Source: a virus | Virus record (IMG/VR): IMGVR_UViG_3300031256_000004 | Location: 1 to 24,598 of that record | DNA length: 24,598 bases | Strand: one strand, 5' to 3' | Position numbers and translations under genes: made by a program | The notes under the pieces: generated by a model | Told to the model about the DNA's origin: nothing | The model's input: the letters and a program-made list of their open reading frames with translations, nothing else | The model's database searches: none | Shown here: positions 1,923 to 20,121 of the stretch, in pieces | Position numbering within the stretch: position 1 is the stretch's first letter | Layout of the letters: the number at the start of each line of letters is the position of its first letter

Positions 1923-2118
1923 AGAGAGGTGTTTTCTGAATCCTTCTTTGAAATTCATTATTTTTCAGAGTGGAAATTTTTGGTAGTTAGAAATATGGTC
2001 TAAGATACTTGGACCCGCGCACTGAAAAGGGGGGTACAAGTGTTCATAGTTGGGTGAATGTTTGTTCCTTTGAGTTTGGCACACGGTGTGCATGGGTGCA
2101 AGTGTTGGGCCACGTTCG

Positions 2119-2300
2119 GGCATGATTTTGTATTTTGTGTTTTGTATGATGTGGAAAAAAGGTGTATCTTGCGCGCGGAAAATGGCACGGTATATGTATA
2201 TGTTGCAATTTCCGTGCCACTTTTGGGCAAGATGGGAGAAATAAATGGCCTGATCCAATCGGGTCTCCGGTTCAAGGGCTCATGTGATCATGCCAGGGGT
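2119..2300. repeat. Left arm of imperfect long inverted repeat
   Basis: Read on the minus strand, this arm contains four blocks that recur in the same order on the plus strand of 2519-2825. They are 2286-2269 (18 bases exact with 2527-2544), 2241-2232 (TTTCTCCCAT, also 2647-2656), 2220-2190 (ATTGCAACATATA core, also 2758-2770) and 2154-2119 (about 30 of 36 matching 2791-2825 with one gap). Order and orientation are conserved on both arms, which chance similarity would not produce. Within this arm TGGCACGG (2183-2190) and CCGTGCCA (2212-2219) form an extra hairpin. Confidence 0.75.
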
Positions 2301-2518
2301 GCCCCTAGATCAAAAAATGTTTCAACATCGCAAATCATATTTGAATAAAAAAAAATATATAAGAACATATAGAAACCCCATACATATCAAACATATGCAT
2401 TTATGCAAGTCCCATGCCATATTAGAAAAGTGAACATTTGGACACCCCAAAAACACGCTTTTTCACAAAAAACCCCATAATTTCAAACACCTACGCCCGG
2501 TGAACATATGGGACCCCC

Positions 2519-2825
2519 AGCATGAACACATGAGCCCTTGAACCAGGGAACCAAAGACCCAATGGTTCAAAATATGCATTCCAAGCAGGCCCGGCAGATT
2601 CTTCCCAAATGGGCATTTATTGCCGCCAAAACAGGCAAAATATGCCATTTCTCCCATTGGCACACCTTATGCATTACCTTGGAAAAAACGCCCAAAAAAC
2701 TCAAGCATTTCAACGCATTACGAAAAAATGTGTCCGTTTTTGTCCTTTGGCACCCACATTGCAACATATATACATGACTCCAGACGGGGATCACATCATA
2801 CAAGACACCTTATCAAAATCATGCC
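2519..2825. repeat. Right arm of imperfect long inverted repeat
   Basis: Partner of the 2119-2300 arm. It is about 120 bases longer because the matching blocks are separated by extra A/C-rich sequence, for example between 2545 and 2640 and between 2660 and 2745. The 18-base block 2527-2544 is identical to the reverse complement of 2269-2286, and with one mismatch the match extends a further 7 bases. Confidence 0.75.
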
Positions 2826-2902: not shown

Positions 2903-3487
2903 ATGACTGAAGAAAGTACCCATCTTGCAACATATCCCGCGACGTCTTCGGATGTACCACGGGATGCAAGGACAGAAGATTGCTACATCAAGATAGATGT
3001 ATGCAAAGCATTCAAGTATCAGATCGACATGTCGGCCCAAAAACCAGACGTCTTTCACGCCTGGACCAAAGGCTCAGAATCCTTGCGAACCCTTGTGGAT
3101 CATTCGATCCGGATCAAGGGAGCCGACGCACTTCGTGGCTATATGCAGGACGTTTTTGGCGAACCCAACAAAGCGATTCGTGAAAACTACACAGCCTACG
3201 CCGCGCAAATCGGATCCGATCCGGAAAAACTCTCGAAAGTCCGAGAGTACATGATTTCCTGGTGCTGGGAAGGCAAGGTAACAAAGCCAAAAACCCTGGA
3301 AGCCCAACTCGCCGAATGCATCGCAGCACAAGGAAAAATCGTACAAGCTGCAAAAGCTGGCAAGTACGTCACAGCCGACGACAAGAAGCAAGCCAAAGCC
3401 CAACTTACAGCTTTGGTTGACAAACGTGCCGCCCTGGAAACCCAACTCGCCGACCAAGAAACCGATCTGGACGAGCTTTTCGACTAA
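2903..3487 (+). CDS. Hypothetical early protein with C-terminal coiled coil
   Basis: First gene of the rightward block, 194 residues, with GGGAG 7 nt before the ATG. I do not recognise the family. Residues about 100-115 (YAAQIGSDPEKLSKVR) begin a helical region. Residues about 130-190 are rich in Ala, Lys, Gln and Leu with long charged heptad-like runs, suggesting a coiled coil, and the tail is acidic (ETDLDELFD). Its sequence looks richer in G and C than the genes that follow. It sits alone between a palindromic promoter-like site and a terminator, so it is probably a separately transcribed, strongly expressed early gene. Its function is unknown. Confidence 0.85.
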   Translation: MTEESTHLATYPATSSDVPRDARTEDCYIKIDVCKAFKYQIDMSAQKPDVFHAWTKGSESLRTLVDHSIRIKGADALRGYMQDVFGEPNKAIRENYTAYAAQIGSDPEKLSKVREYMISWCWEGKVTKPKTLEAQLAECIAAQGKIVQAAKAGKYVTADDKKQAKAQLTALVDKRAALETQLADQETDLDELFD

Positions 3488-5056: not shown

Positions 5057-5103
5057 GTTGCCTCTTTTTCGTAAAAACTTTTTCTTTGGGAGAAAAAAAA
5101 AAG

Positions 5104-5481
5104 ATGAAAAAACTTACAAGAACAAAAGCCGAGACCGTACAAGAGCATCGAAAGCTCTGGAAGCGGATTGCAAAAGACTCGCTTGCTGCGAAGCTGGAAC
5201 TTAGCGGTGTGATAAATAACTGTTATTTTTGTCACTATACTGTGGAGCGTCGAGAAGGTCGGGTTATATTGGATAACGGTTGGCTATATTATCCAAGACG
5301 CATAGACTGCAAACGTTTCTGTCCCGGACTTTGGAAAGATGCTGCTGGTCGTATACTTAGCAAATGTGTATGTTTTGGCTCTTCATATTATTTATGGGCC
5401 TTTTGCTCCTCGGATAAGGCAAAAGACTACGCTTTAGAAGTAGCAAACATTGAGATTCGAAGGGAGAAAAAAGATGACTAA
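5104..5481 (+). CDS. Cys-rich putative zinc-binding protein, C-module type
   Basis: A 125-residue member of a phage protein family with the pattern CxxC, then CxxxCPxxW, then an aromatic Yxx W, ending in an IANxxxR-like motif. Here these are CYFC (40-43), CKRFCPGLW (69-77), YYLW (95-98) and VANIEIR (113-119). It is closely related to the 6403 protein (both start MKKLTRTK) and to the C-terminal half of the 5702 protein. Zinc binding is inferred from the Cys spacing; the function of the family is not known to me. The start at 5104 follows a TTTGGGAG leader; a TTG at 5086 lies inside it and is rejected. Confidence 0.88.
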   Translation: MKKLTRTKAETVQEHRKLWKRIAKDSLAAKLELSGVINNCYFCHYTVERREGRVILDNGWLYYPRRIDCKRFCPGLWKDAAGRILSKCVCFGSSYYLWAFCSSDKAKDYALEVANIEIRREKKDD

Positions 5482-5701: not shown

Positions 5702-6406
5702 ATGACAGAAATAAGTAAGGAAGTCGAACTTGAAGCGTTGAATAGGTCTATTGCTCTTTGGACGCCCCTGATTACAGAACTCCAGGCAATGGACGAGGCT
5801 ACTCTTAATGAGCTAGAGGAGTATGATATTCAAACAATTAAGGAGCTTATAGATCCTGAGGTAGCAATACGGATTTGGAACTGTTATTTATGCGCAATGT
5901 TTTGGAACGGTACTATTGGGGTAGATTGTGAGCGTTGTTGCGTGGGCATCGCCTGTGGGCCTTGTAAGGATGACGACTTTAACGAGTATAAGATACTGGT
6001 AAACCCAGCGAGCCTTCGTATAAAAAGACTCCGCGCCGCAAATCGAATACTACGAGCGATGAAAGCAAGAAGGAAGCAACTTCAATCGGAGGTTGCCTTT
6101 CGATTGCATCAAAAGATGTGGCGAGAGCTTGCGGAGACTGGGCATGATAGAAAGCCTTGGTTGAAGGGCGTAAGGAACAATTGCTATCTCTGTCAGTATG
6201 TAGTAGACAAGGCTGGTAAGTTACAAGACGACATATGTCGTAAACACTGCCCTGCGATATGGCCGATTAAAAGTGAACGAACGTATTGGGCGGCCCCTTG
6301 TGAAGAGTCATATTACGGTCTTTGGCGAGATAGTTGCTTTCCTGACGACAGGCAAAAACTAGCCAAAAAGATCGCAAACTTAGAATATCGAAAGGAGGCG
6401 CGATGA
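5702..6406 (+). CDS. Two-module Cys-rich protein, fusion of N- and C-type modules
   Basis: A 234-residue protein with AAGGAG before ATG. Residues 1-130 match the 4180 protein (CYLC 61-64, CERC 76-79, then the basic helix RIKRLRAANRILRAM). Residues 135-234 match the 5104 and 6403 proteins (CYLC 161-164, CRKHCPAIW 179-187, YYGLW 204-208, IANLEYR 224-230). The two halves also resemble each other, each running Trp-x-x-Leu, then NCYLC, then a second Cys pair, so the family likely arose by duplication and fusion. Two zinc sites are inferred. It overlaps the next gene by ATGA. Confidence 0.9.
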   Translation: MTEISKEVELEALNRSIALWTPLITELQAMDEATLNELEEYDIQTIKELIDPEVAIRIWNCYLCAMFWNGTIGVDCERCCVGIACGPCKDDDFNEYKILVNPASLRIKRLRAANRILRAMKARRKQLQSEVAFRLHQKMWRELAETGHDRKPWLKGVRNNCYLCQYVVDKAGKLQDDICRKHCPAIWPIKSERTYWAAPCEESYYGLWRDSCFPDDRQKLAKKIANLEYRKEAR

Positions 6407-6777
6407 AAAAGCTCACAAGGACAAAACGCGAAGCTATACGCAAACATAGGAAATACTGGAAAAGGATTGCGAATGAGACACCCTACAGGCCTAAGCCCTC
6501 GTCATCTGACGTAATCAACGATTGCTATTTTTGCCATTATACTGTGGAACGCCAAGAAGGGAGAATCGTAGAGAAATCAGAATGGATTAAACCTCATTAC
6601 AAGTCGTGTGTTAAATTTTGCCCCGGGCTCTGGAAAGACCCTGAGGGGTTGGTTCTTAACTCTTGCGAAGAACAAAGTTCCTTATATTCTTTATGGTCGG
6701 CTAGCGTTAATCAGTTACTATCCACTCGTTATGCCTTGGCAATTGCGAACATAGAAATTAGAAAGGAGACACGATGA
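6403..6777 (+). CDS. Cys-rich putative zinc-binding protein, C-module type
   Basis: A 124-residue paralogue of the 5104 protein. Both start MKKLTRTK and share NDCYFCHYTVER-like and KFCPGLWKD-like segments; Cys are at 41, 44, 69 and 73. The ending IANIEIRKETR matches the family's terminal motif. AAGGAGG lies before ATG and both ends overlap neighbours by ATGA, so it is translationally coupled in a four-gene run. Confidence 0.9.
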   Translation: MKKLTRTKREAIRKHRKYWKRIANETPYRPKPSSSDVINDCYFCHYTVERQEGRIVEKSEWIKPHYKSCVKFCPGLWKDPEGLVLNSCEEQSSLYSLWSASVNQLLSTRYALAIANIEIRKETR

Positions 6778-7972: not shown

Positions 7973-8248
7973 ATGTCAATAGTAATTCGCCATAAAGAAA
8001 CTGGCAGACGCGCACTTATAAAAGGCGCCTTTATAAATTTCACTCGGCCCGAATGTCCAAAGTATGCCTATTTTCGCATGCCCAAGAACACCCCAAAATA
8101 CGTTCAGGCAGAACGTATGAACATTGTAAAGACCTGCCGTTCATTGCCCATTCAGATGTTTGGAAAGCGAAAGGGCCCATTTTTGAAACTCGCTCCCGTT
8201 CCTGGTTGGGAGATCGTTGATGCTTGGGAGGAAATCTATGTCTATTGA
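7973..8248 (+). CDS. Hypothetical basic protein
   Basis: A 91-residue, Lys/Arg/Pro-rich protein with AAGGAG before ATG. It starts with a beta-strand-like segment (MSIVIRHKETGRRALIKGAF) and contains RPECPKYAYFRMPKN. No known domain is recognised. Its end overlaps the start of the next gene by 11 nt. Confidence 0.78.
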   Translation: MSIVIRHKETGRRALIKGAFINFTRPECPKYAYFRMPKNTPKYVQAERMNIVKTCRSLPIQMFGKRKGPFLKLAPVPGWEIVDAWEEIYVY

Positions 8249-8516
8249 AATAGAAAAGACCGTAACGGTCGATGTTGATCTAAGTGAATTCGACTCAGAA
8301 GAAGTCTGTACCTACGTGGCTGAAAATTGGGGTGTAGGAGATGTATATTCTAGGGATGATATTATAGATTTTTGCTGGTGTGAACTTGAGTTAGAAGAGC
8401 TCTATAATACCGCACACGTACAAGACTATTGCATCGATCAGAAGCCAGAGGACATTTTCTCAGAAGCTGCCCTAGCAGATTGGGCTAATCGCCACGGTTG
8501 GAAAGGCCCGAACTAA
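8238..8516 (+). CDS. Hypothetical acidic protein
   Basis: A 92-residue strongly acidic protein (many Asp and Glu, few basic residues) with three conserved-looking Cys in FCWCELELEELYN. TGGGAGG lies 7 nt before ATG 8238; an in-frame TTG at 8217 is upstream of it and rejected. Small acidic phage proteins often mimic DNA or bind host factors, but nothing here identifies a target. Confidence 0.78.
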   Translation: MSIEIEKTVTVDVDLSEFDSEEVCTYVAENWGVGDVYSRDDIIDFCWCELELEELYNTAHVQDYCIDQKPEDIFSEAALADWANRHGWKGPN

Positions 8517-10256: not shown

Positions 10257-10339
10257 GGAGAGTTGGCAGAGTGGTTTAATGCGCCGGGCTTGAAAACCGG
10301 TGGCCTTTTGGCCCAAGGGTTCGAATCCCTTACTCTCTT
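10257..10339 (+). tRNA. tRNA-Ser (anticodon UGA)
   Basis: All arms are visible. The acceptor is GGAGAGT/ACTCTCT (10257-10263 and 10332-10338, first pair G-T). The D arm is GCA/TGC with loop containing GTGG. The anticodon arm is CCGGG/ACCGG with TGA at 10291-10293. The long class II variable arm is GGCC-TTTT-GGCC (10302-10313), and the T arm is AAGGG-TTCGAAT-CCCTT (10315-10331). A long variable arm with this anticodon defines serine. The pair next to the loop is G-A instead of Watson-Crick, and no CCA is encoded. It would read UCA codons. Confidence 0.93.
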
Positions 10340-10382
10340 CAGGTAGGCAACGACGATTTACCCTTTTAACGAGGAAAACAAA

Positions 10383-18547: not shown

Positions 18548-18770
18548 TATTCAAAAGAGCGCATCGAAGATGACTACGCAAGAGCTACGCCAACGGATCG
18601 AAGAGATTCGACGGGGTCGTGTACAAACTGTGAAACAGGTCGAAAAGAAAGTTAAGAAGACCAAAGCCACAAAAAAGAAGCAGGGCGTTGCCTTAGCAAA
18701 GAAACTTAATCTAACACCTCAACAAATATTGGATTTGCTTTATGGAAACGAAAAAGATACAAATAAATGA
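18534..18770 (+). CDS. Small basic protein (78 aa)
   Basis: A 78-residue, very basic protein (KKVKKTKATKKKQG) with a helical start and end. GAGGAGGG precedes ATG 18534; an in-frame TTG at 18519 lies upstream of it and is rejected. It overlaps both neighbours (14 and 29 nt). The basic centre suggests nucleic acid binding. Confidence 0.75.
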   Translation: MLLDDIQKSASKMTTQELRQRIEEIRRGRVQTVKQVEKKVKKTKATKKKQGVALAKKLNLTPQQILDLLYGNEKDTNK

Positions 18771-20121
18771 TATCAAGATCGAGGAGCGTATGCGGACCGT
18801 TTATGCTGGTGTCGAAGAGCTTGCGGCTTCTTTTAGGGAGAAGGGACAACTATCAGCAATTCTCGTAACTCCTGATATACGCTTGATTGCTGGGGGCCGA
18901 CGGCTCGCTGCAGCAAAATTTAATGGTTGGGAAGAGATTGAAGCGAAGATCATTAATACCGAGGATACCTACGAAATCGAATTCATAGAGAATCACGAGC
19001 GAGAGGATTTCGCTTGGCCAGATTTTGCCCGGGGCGTATCGAAGATACACGAAGCTCGATTGGAAAAGGACTATAAATGGTCGGCGAAGGATACAGCCCG
19101 CGTGATTGGTCTATCAAAAAGCTCTGTTCTGAATCAGCTTCAACTTGCCAAGATGATGGCCGTGATTCCTGGTCTCGATCAACTTCCTACCGAAGCAGAA
19201 GCCTTTCGAAAGATCGATGCTTTGTATGAGAATATATACGCAAAAGAGCTCGCAGCAAGGCCGGAAGAAGAACAAAAGGAAGAACAGCCTGTAGAGGCCC
19301 CACAGAAACCTCAAAGCGTATTCACAGAAGAGCAACGAGCTCAGTCTAAAAAAGAGGTCCAAGAGCTCCTTGATCGTTGTAAGCAATTAAAAGATGAAGG
19401 AATCACGGATGAAAATGGAAATCGTATCTTGCCGGCCGTTCCGGAGTTTATTATAGATGACTTCTTTACGGCTGTCGATAAGATGGCGGATGGAGAGCTT
19501 GGAGACTACTCTTTAATTGAATGCGATCCTCCTTATGGAATTGGCTTGGATGAGAATAAAGAATCTTCTCCTGCTATGATGGACGTCTATAATGAGATTT
19601 CTCGACAGGACTATCCAGAGTTTTTGAATACTCTTATGTTCCAAATGTATCGTATCTTAGGAAACAATGCACGTGTAATTTTCTGGTACGGGCCTGAATG
19701 GTATCCTACAATCATGTCGATCGCTGGAAGCGTTGGATTTAAAGTAAATCCTATTCCTTCCATCTGGTATAAACCGAACATAACAGGACAAAACAAACAA
19801 CCCCGGGTGAATATGTCAAATGTCTATGAGCCTTTCTTACTACTTCGAAAGGGCACTCCGATCCTTGGAAAATTCGGAGCAAAGAATGTCTTCGCCTTCG
19901 ACACGGTTCCGGATAAGGACAAGATCCATCCGACTGAACGACCTATTGCCTTGATCGAAGAGGTCATTCAAACCGTTGCCAGCCCTAAATCTACTTCGCA
20001 GTGCCTTGTACCTTTTCTTGGAAGTGGTAATACTTTGATTGCTTGTAAGAATCTTGGTATAAAGGTAAAAGGATATGAGAAATCTCAGGAGTATAAAGAT
20101 CGATATATAATTCGAAGATAA
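18742..20121 (+). CDS. ParB-like nuclease domain fused to DNA methyltransferase
   Basis: A 459-residue protein. Residues 1-140 are a ParB/Srx-type domain: GGRR (51-54), ENHERED (83-89) and an HTH at about 115-137. Residues about 230-459 are a beta-class DNA amino-methyltransferase, with DPPY (262-265, motif IV) before FLGSGN (425-430, motif I). HPTERP precedes motif I as in many phage enzymes. It would methylate adenine or cytosine at a site that the ParB part may help locate. No strong ribosome binding site precedes ATG 18742, which lies within the upstream gene and would rely on coupling. Confidence 0.9.
   Translation: METKKIQINDIKIEERMRTVYAGVEELAASFREKGQLSAILVTPDIRLIAGGRRLAAAKFNGWEEIEAKIINTEDTYEIEFIENHEREDFAWPDFARGVSKIHEARLEKDYKWSAKDTARVIGLSKSSVLNQLQLAKMMAVIPGLDQLPTEAEAFRKIDALYENIYAKELAARPEEEQKEEQPVEAPQKPQSVFTEEQRAQSKKEVQELLDRCKQLKDEGITDENGNRILPAVPEFIIDDFFTAVDKMADGELGDYSLIECDPPYGIGLDENKESSPAMMDVYNEISRQDYPEFLNTLMFQMYRILGNNARVIFWYGPEWYPTIMSIAGSVGFKVNPIPSIWYKPNITGQNKQPRVNMSNVYEPFLLLRKGTPILGKFGAKNVFAFDTVPDKDKIHPTERPIALIEEVIQTVASPKSTSQCLVPFLGSGNTLIACKNLGIKVKGYEKSQEYKDRYIIRR

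Follow-up and report, generated by a model that had tools for sequence, protein, structure and literature searches.

Divergent early and late regions of tailed phages place one non-coding hub between opposed gene blocks, and in the well-studied examples transcription relies on sigma-70, on sigma factors of the phage or on a phage RNA polymerase. Bacterial sigma-54 promoters stay silent unless switched on by an ATP-driven activator that responds to nutrients, stress or envelope damage. The -24/-12 consensus of bacterial sigma-54 (RpoN) is TGGCAC-N5-TTGCW (PMC3844500, PMC12316311), and the Desulfobacteria carry the most sigma-54 activators (PMC12316311). From phages, the open-access literature (subscription journals were outside our scope) describes sigma-54 inhibitors and one putative sigma-54-like protein; we found in it no phage run by sigma-54 promoters. 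The promoter kind is known; for its use as a divergent phage hub, and for its apparent frequency in uncultured viruses, no open-access report was found.

Here, we describe a mirrored gap between the divergent gene blocks of an uncultured phage which, judged from its DNA, is probably a two-way hub of sigma-54-type promoters. It resembles bacterial sigma-54 promoters in its GG/GC spacing, flanking consensus, scores within the ChIP range and divergent gene arrangement, but differs in belonging to a phage genome and in having several sites in one gap, on both strands, without an adjoining cognate activator gene. It shares the single hub between opposed blocks with the divergent regions of other tailed phages, but a sigma-70 scan (-35/-10 hexamers, 16-18 nt spacing) found 0 promoters in the gap vs. 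2.7 in shuffles. Among named phages, the polymerase is closest in identity to that of Desulfofustis phage LS06-2018-MD01 (OP947158), which has the same two-block layout, but matches the sigma-54 pattern nowhere. This relationship, together with the abundance of activators in the Desulfobacteria, was counted in favour of a sigma-54 hub.

The Phage Genome and Its Divergent Gap

The window, i.e., the whole stretch of 24,598 nt that was analysed, is a 24.6-kb portion of a tailed phage genome. The whole virus is represented by IMG/VR record 3300031354_000004 (45,097 nt once the 127-nt end repeat is removed), which differs from the window by a single base. The rightward early block encodes a Sak4-like protein, a single-strand binding protein, a ParB-methyltransferase fusion, a family A DNA polymerase and a primase/helicase; its first gene (2903-3487, +) has no assigned function. 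The leftward block consists, in order, of a 71-codon frame (1743-1958, -), a probable terminase small subunit (1040-1759, -), so designated only from its position ahead of the large subunit, with no family match, and the terminase large subunit (1-1149, -; phrog_2, E = 5e-19), which is truncated by the window edge. The 71-codon frame is probably a conserved gene, since it has an alignable counterpart of equal length in a related virus, and the gap therefore probably begins at 1959 rather than at 1760. The frame is unannotated and overlaps the next gene. Within it, at 1807-1873, there is a strong inverted repeat with 18-nt arms (89%), and the surrounding stretch is 69% identical in the relative; this could be either an RNA structure or a by-product of coding.

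DNA comparison with known phages yielded nothing matching the gap, and no genome contig that would assign a host was found in a search for relatives of the polymerase. A profile for phage single-subunit RNA polymerase (PF00940) had no match in the virus, though the control was silent as well. An Rfam search gave a single match, judged to be due to chance.

The Inverted Repeat

A first-pass annotation of this DNA had described a collinear inverted repeat in the gap. The repeat is real, and comprises five nested blocks. Innermost are the arms designated A (2261-2303 and 2510-2552), which match over 43 nt at 84% and contain an exact 18-mer, 2269-2286 being the reverse complement of 2527-2544. Outside these lie block B (2232-2242/2647-2657, 11 of 11 positions) and block C (2192-2219/2748-2775, 82%). 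The outermost pair, block D (2119-2153 and 2791-2825), matches at 86% with one gap when compared over 2119-2154, and resolves into 2119-2130/2814-2825 (12/12) and 2137-2153/2792-2808 (16/17). Measured against 200 shuffles preserving local dinucleotides, the nested chain scored 85 (shuffles: mean 47, sd 9, maximum 70) and the best single block 29, where shuffles reached at most 17. In a BLAST search within the virus, the two longest repeat pairs had E values of 1.6e-7 and 8e-5. The entire region folds as a nested stem, but because this fold is dictated by the inverted repeat itself, we rejected a long hairpin RNA as its explanation.

The mirrored base composition noted in the annotation was also reproduced exactly, with 43 of 60 bases G/T on the left (2041-2100) and 41 of 60 A/C on the right (2461-2520). 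When 300 + 300-nt flanks were compared over the whole 45,097-nt genome, the G/T-to-A/C switch at 2300 ranked 16th of 45,097 positions, with the maximum only one base away, and the same switch is found in the relative.

Sigma-54-Type Sites

The pattern TGGCAC-N5-TTGCA with at most one mismatch occurs six times in the genome, always within 2077-2763, and the rest of the 45,097 nt has no further match. Three of the six sites are on each strand, two being exact and four having one mismatch; dinucleotide shuffles of the window gave an expectation of 0.29. The gap sites have the -24 GG and -12 GC separated by 10 bp, as in TGGCAC-N5-TTGCW. We also rebuilt a score matrix from the 29 intergenic Salmonella sigma-54 sites bound in ChIP-chip (PMC3844500), which themselves score 15.8-23.0. 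The five top scores in the genome (15.7-20.4) all fall in the gap, and four gap sites, at 15.8-20.4, are within the range of the bound Salmonella sites.

The exact pair coincides with mirrored block C and faces outward, with TGGCACGGAAATTGCA (2219 to 2204, -) directed at the terminase block and TGGCACCCACATTGCA (2748-2763, +) at the early block. The left main sigma-54-type promoter, TGGCACGGAAATTGCA (2202-2220, -), forms half of block C and has the third highest matrix score in the genome (16.0); its predicted start is at 2193, and it points toward the 71-codon frame and, beyond this, the terminase genes. The right main sigma-54-type promoter, TTGGCACCCACATTGCA (2747-2765, +), has a start predicted at 2774 from the -12 GC, toward the early block. 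It scores only 10.4, below the Salmonella range, because a C follows TGGCAC, and its standing comes from the exact pattern and from its position in a conserved stretch rather than from the matrix.

Four other sites match the pattern with one mismatch each. The best score in the genome (20.4) belongs to a second right-facing site, TGGCACACCTTATGCA (2657-2675, +), and the second best (17.5) to a central left-facing site, TGGCATGGGACTTGCA (2402-2419, -). A weak left-facing site, TGGCCCAACACTTGCA, is located at 2097-2112 (-). Two sites face inward: TTGGCACACGGTGTGCA (2076-2094, +; matrix 15.8) and TGGCACGGTATATGTATA (2183-2200, +; 15.7), the latter a possible extra site that has a weak -12 element and misses the simple pattern.

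Conservation in a Related Virus

The relative is represented by IMG/VR viruses 3300037483_000728 and 3300037424_000623, which are identical where compared; its polymerase is 74% and its large terminase 67% identical to those of the phage. Its gap has the same layout, with two sigma-54-type matches facing each way. The best matrix scores are 19.3 for a right-facing site, TGGCACGCCCGGTGCATT, the counterpart of the site at 2657, and 17.4 for a left-facing one. The outward-facing sites and their conservation thus support the proposal in the annotation that this is a two-way promoter region.

The best-conserved non-coding stretch between the two gaps is that around the right promoter (82% over 44 nt), followed by the A-rich centre (63% over 142 nt, E = 3e-7). 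The annotation had suggested that selection kept particular blocks. This holds for the promoter block, but not for the arms at the 18-mer or the 2119-2154 pair, for which no sequence conservation with the relative was found. The relative instead has its own inverted repeat around the A-rich centre, with 63-nt arms (83%) that differ in sequence from those in the window. The two viruses are accordingly alike in their divergent sigma-54-type sites, A-rich centre and flanking inverted repeat, but differ in the sequences of arms and leaders and in some site positions. The layout has thus persisted although both arms changed their sequence in concert, which suggests that the arms are homogenised within each genome, or co-evolve with a binding protein.

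The A-Rich Centre and the Leaders

The A-rich centre (2308-2447) contains a dyad, GTGAACATTTGGACAC (2430-2445), that is a candidate activator site. The corresponding pattern, GTGNNC-N4-GNNCAC, occurs once in the genome, at 2430, and recurs in the centre of the relative. The dyad and the A arms are our candidates for activator binding; no match to an established activator site was obtained, and the known sites TGT-N10-ACA and TGCA-N9-TGCA are not enriched in the centre. A degenerate 20-nt element is present in three copies at 2361, 2430 and 2500 (2361-2519, +), with spacings of 69 and 70. Profile searches of the virus found neither an activator gene (PF00158) nor a sigma-54 DNA-binding domain (PF04552), with positive controls in both cases. 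Because the virus has no recognisable activator or sigma-54 gene, any activator would presumably be supplied by the host.

On the right, the predicted transcript carries a hairpin (2781-2839, +) that has a 14-bp stem from +8 and a folding energy of -24.8 kcal/mol (z of about -4.1 to -4.4). The right half of block D, at about +18 to +52 of this transcript, mostly forms the hairpin loop, while the left half would lie at about +41 to +75 of the transcript predicted on the left. The relative has a nine-pair stem that starts at its predicted left start (-20.3, z = -4.1). No significant hairpin was found in the left leader of the window (z = -0.9) or the right leader of the relative (z = -1.6), so that each virus has a stable hairpin at or within 10 nt of a predicted start on one side. 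Hairpins of this type at the 5' end commonly protect phage messages.

A Model for the Hub

The sequence basis of the proposed hub is the clustered and conserved -24/-12 elements, the way in which they are oriented, and the hairpins near predicted starts. In the model that we propose, host RNA polymerase carrying sigma-54 would sit in closed complexes on the outward-facing -24/-12 elements until an enhancer-binding ATPase of the host, attached at the shared centre or the arms, loops over and opens them. Opening on the left would give a leftward late transcript (terminase and structural genes), and opening on the right a rightward early transcript (replication genes). The mirror would then consist of two copies, facing apart, of one module made up of an upstream arm, a -24/-12 element and a leader element. 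We infer both recognition by sigma-54 and the roles of a host activator, of looping and of the arms and dyad as binding sites, as well as the choice and timing of sites. Several findings weigh against the model: neither activator nor sigma-54 gene in the virus, the low matrix score of the right main site, the inward direction of the sites at 2076 and 2183, the lack of such sites in the Desulfofustis phage, and the two leaders with no significant hairpin.

Since sigma-54 promoters need a sensor-controlled activator, this phage, and apparently many uncultured ones, may tie gene expression to the state of the host. If both divergent blocks carry sigma-54 promoters, phage development would be gated by the signal of the activator.

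Tandem Sites in Other Viruses

In IMG/VR we looked for pairs of TGGCAC-N5-TTGC elements separated by 2-32 nt. Such tandem pairs occur in at least 120 stretches, mostly non-coding, a count that does not equal the number of phages because bacterial DNA may be present among the IMG/VR contigs. The reversed pattern gave 5 matches, although this control contains CpG and may be too easy. With the halves of the pattern swapped there were 65 matches, nearly all in collagen-like coding repeats (54 of the 65 inside frames of at least 150 codons, and 59 of lengths divisible by three). Outside such frames there were 56 distinct cores for the forward pattern, among the 80 loci of the matches listed, vs. 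9 for the swapped one. The bases left unconstrained by the scan match the sigma-54 consensus (Y before and G after TGGCAC, W after TTGC), which lends further support to the sigma-54 reading: among the forward matches listed, T or C precedes TGGCAC in 77%, G or A follows it in 93%, and A/T follows TTGC in 81%. Several contigs with tandem sites carry terminase, portal or phage polymerase genes and have the array in a divergent gap, and none of the 21 further virus records searched contained an activator gene.

That host sigma-54 and host enhancer-binding proteins are the main switch for both blocks in many uncultured tailed phages is a tentative proposal, to which we give somewhat less than an even chance. 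If it were true, infection would proceed solely in a given host state. The tandem pattern provides a simple DNA signature for finding phages of this type.

In contig L106 (IMG/VR, 51,297 nt), a divergent gap at 1415-1547 has four sigma-54-type sites in tandem, at intervals of 25-38 nt. Ahead of and among them are several GTTAG-N6-CTAAC palindromes that resemble activator sites, a promoter-plus-enhancer layout cleaner than that in the window. In L125, at 8200-8450, between a replication block and a terminase/portal block, the sites (about three forward and six reverse) are interleaved on both strands. Arrays related to that of L125, with a period near 47 nt, are found in L120, L129, L134, L141 and L146.

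Alternative Explanations

The annotation had also proposed a bidirectional replication origin. The arms would then be initiator sites, or form a cruciform, around an A-rich unwinding element, which could account for the conservation of the centre, for the presence of an inverted repeat at the corresponding place in the relative, for the three 20-nt elements about 70 nt apart and for the AT- and purine-skew minima inside the gap. However, the local strand bias has the wrong polarity. A bidirectional origin should have the G/T-rich leading strand as the plus strand on its right side, whereas to the right of 2300 the plus strand is A/C-rich, and to the left G/T-rich. The GC-skew minimum of the genome (record position 38241) misses the gap by about 620 nt, and because gene direction switches where the skew turns, the turn carries little information. 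Furthermore, there is no iteron family beyond the three degenerate copies, and an origin would leave the sigma-54 elements unexplained. We consider it unlikely that the gap is simply an origin; the readings are compatible, and the hub might also contain one, but nothing that we found requires it. As a separate observation, the plus strand is A/C-rich over 2301-2720, upstream of the right promoters, in both viruses, with a sign opposite to that of leading-strand or transcription-linked bias.

Somewhat less likely still is that the TGGCAC-N5-TTGCA sites are bound by another phage or host protein sharing the motif, or titrate the sigma-54 holoenzyme instead of initiating transcripts. Many closely spaced sites, some of them facing inward, would be in keeping with this, as would the arrays on both strands in other viruses and the lack of activator genes in the 21 records, but the sites have the spacing, the flanking consensus and the scores of genuine sigma-54 promoters, and they lie upstream of both blocks, where some leaders form hairpins near +1. 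That the symmetry is an old inverted duplication with no present function is improbable: the arm sequences do differ between the two viruses, but the promoter block is the best-conserved part, and the relative has an independent 63-nt inverted repeat at the same location, which drift by itself would not have maintained. Finally, an invertible segment, flipped by recombination at the inverted arms that flank the centre between divergent promoters, is hardly credible, as the centre has one orientation in both records of the virus and in the relative, and the families searched, a non-systematic set, gave no sign of an invertase.

Other Features of the Genome

Outside the gap, a DNA methyltransferase fused to a ParB-like domain is encoded at 18742-20121, and the early block contains a lone tRNA-Ser (TGA) gene at 10257-10340. 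Two paralogous early genes, 5086-5481 and 6403-6777, have a 38-nt stretch of DNA in common (5221-5258/6523-6560) and likely arose by duplication.
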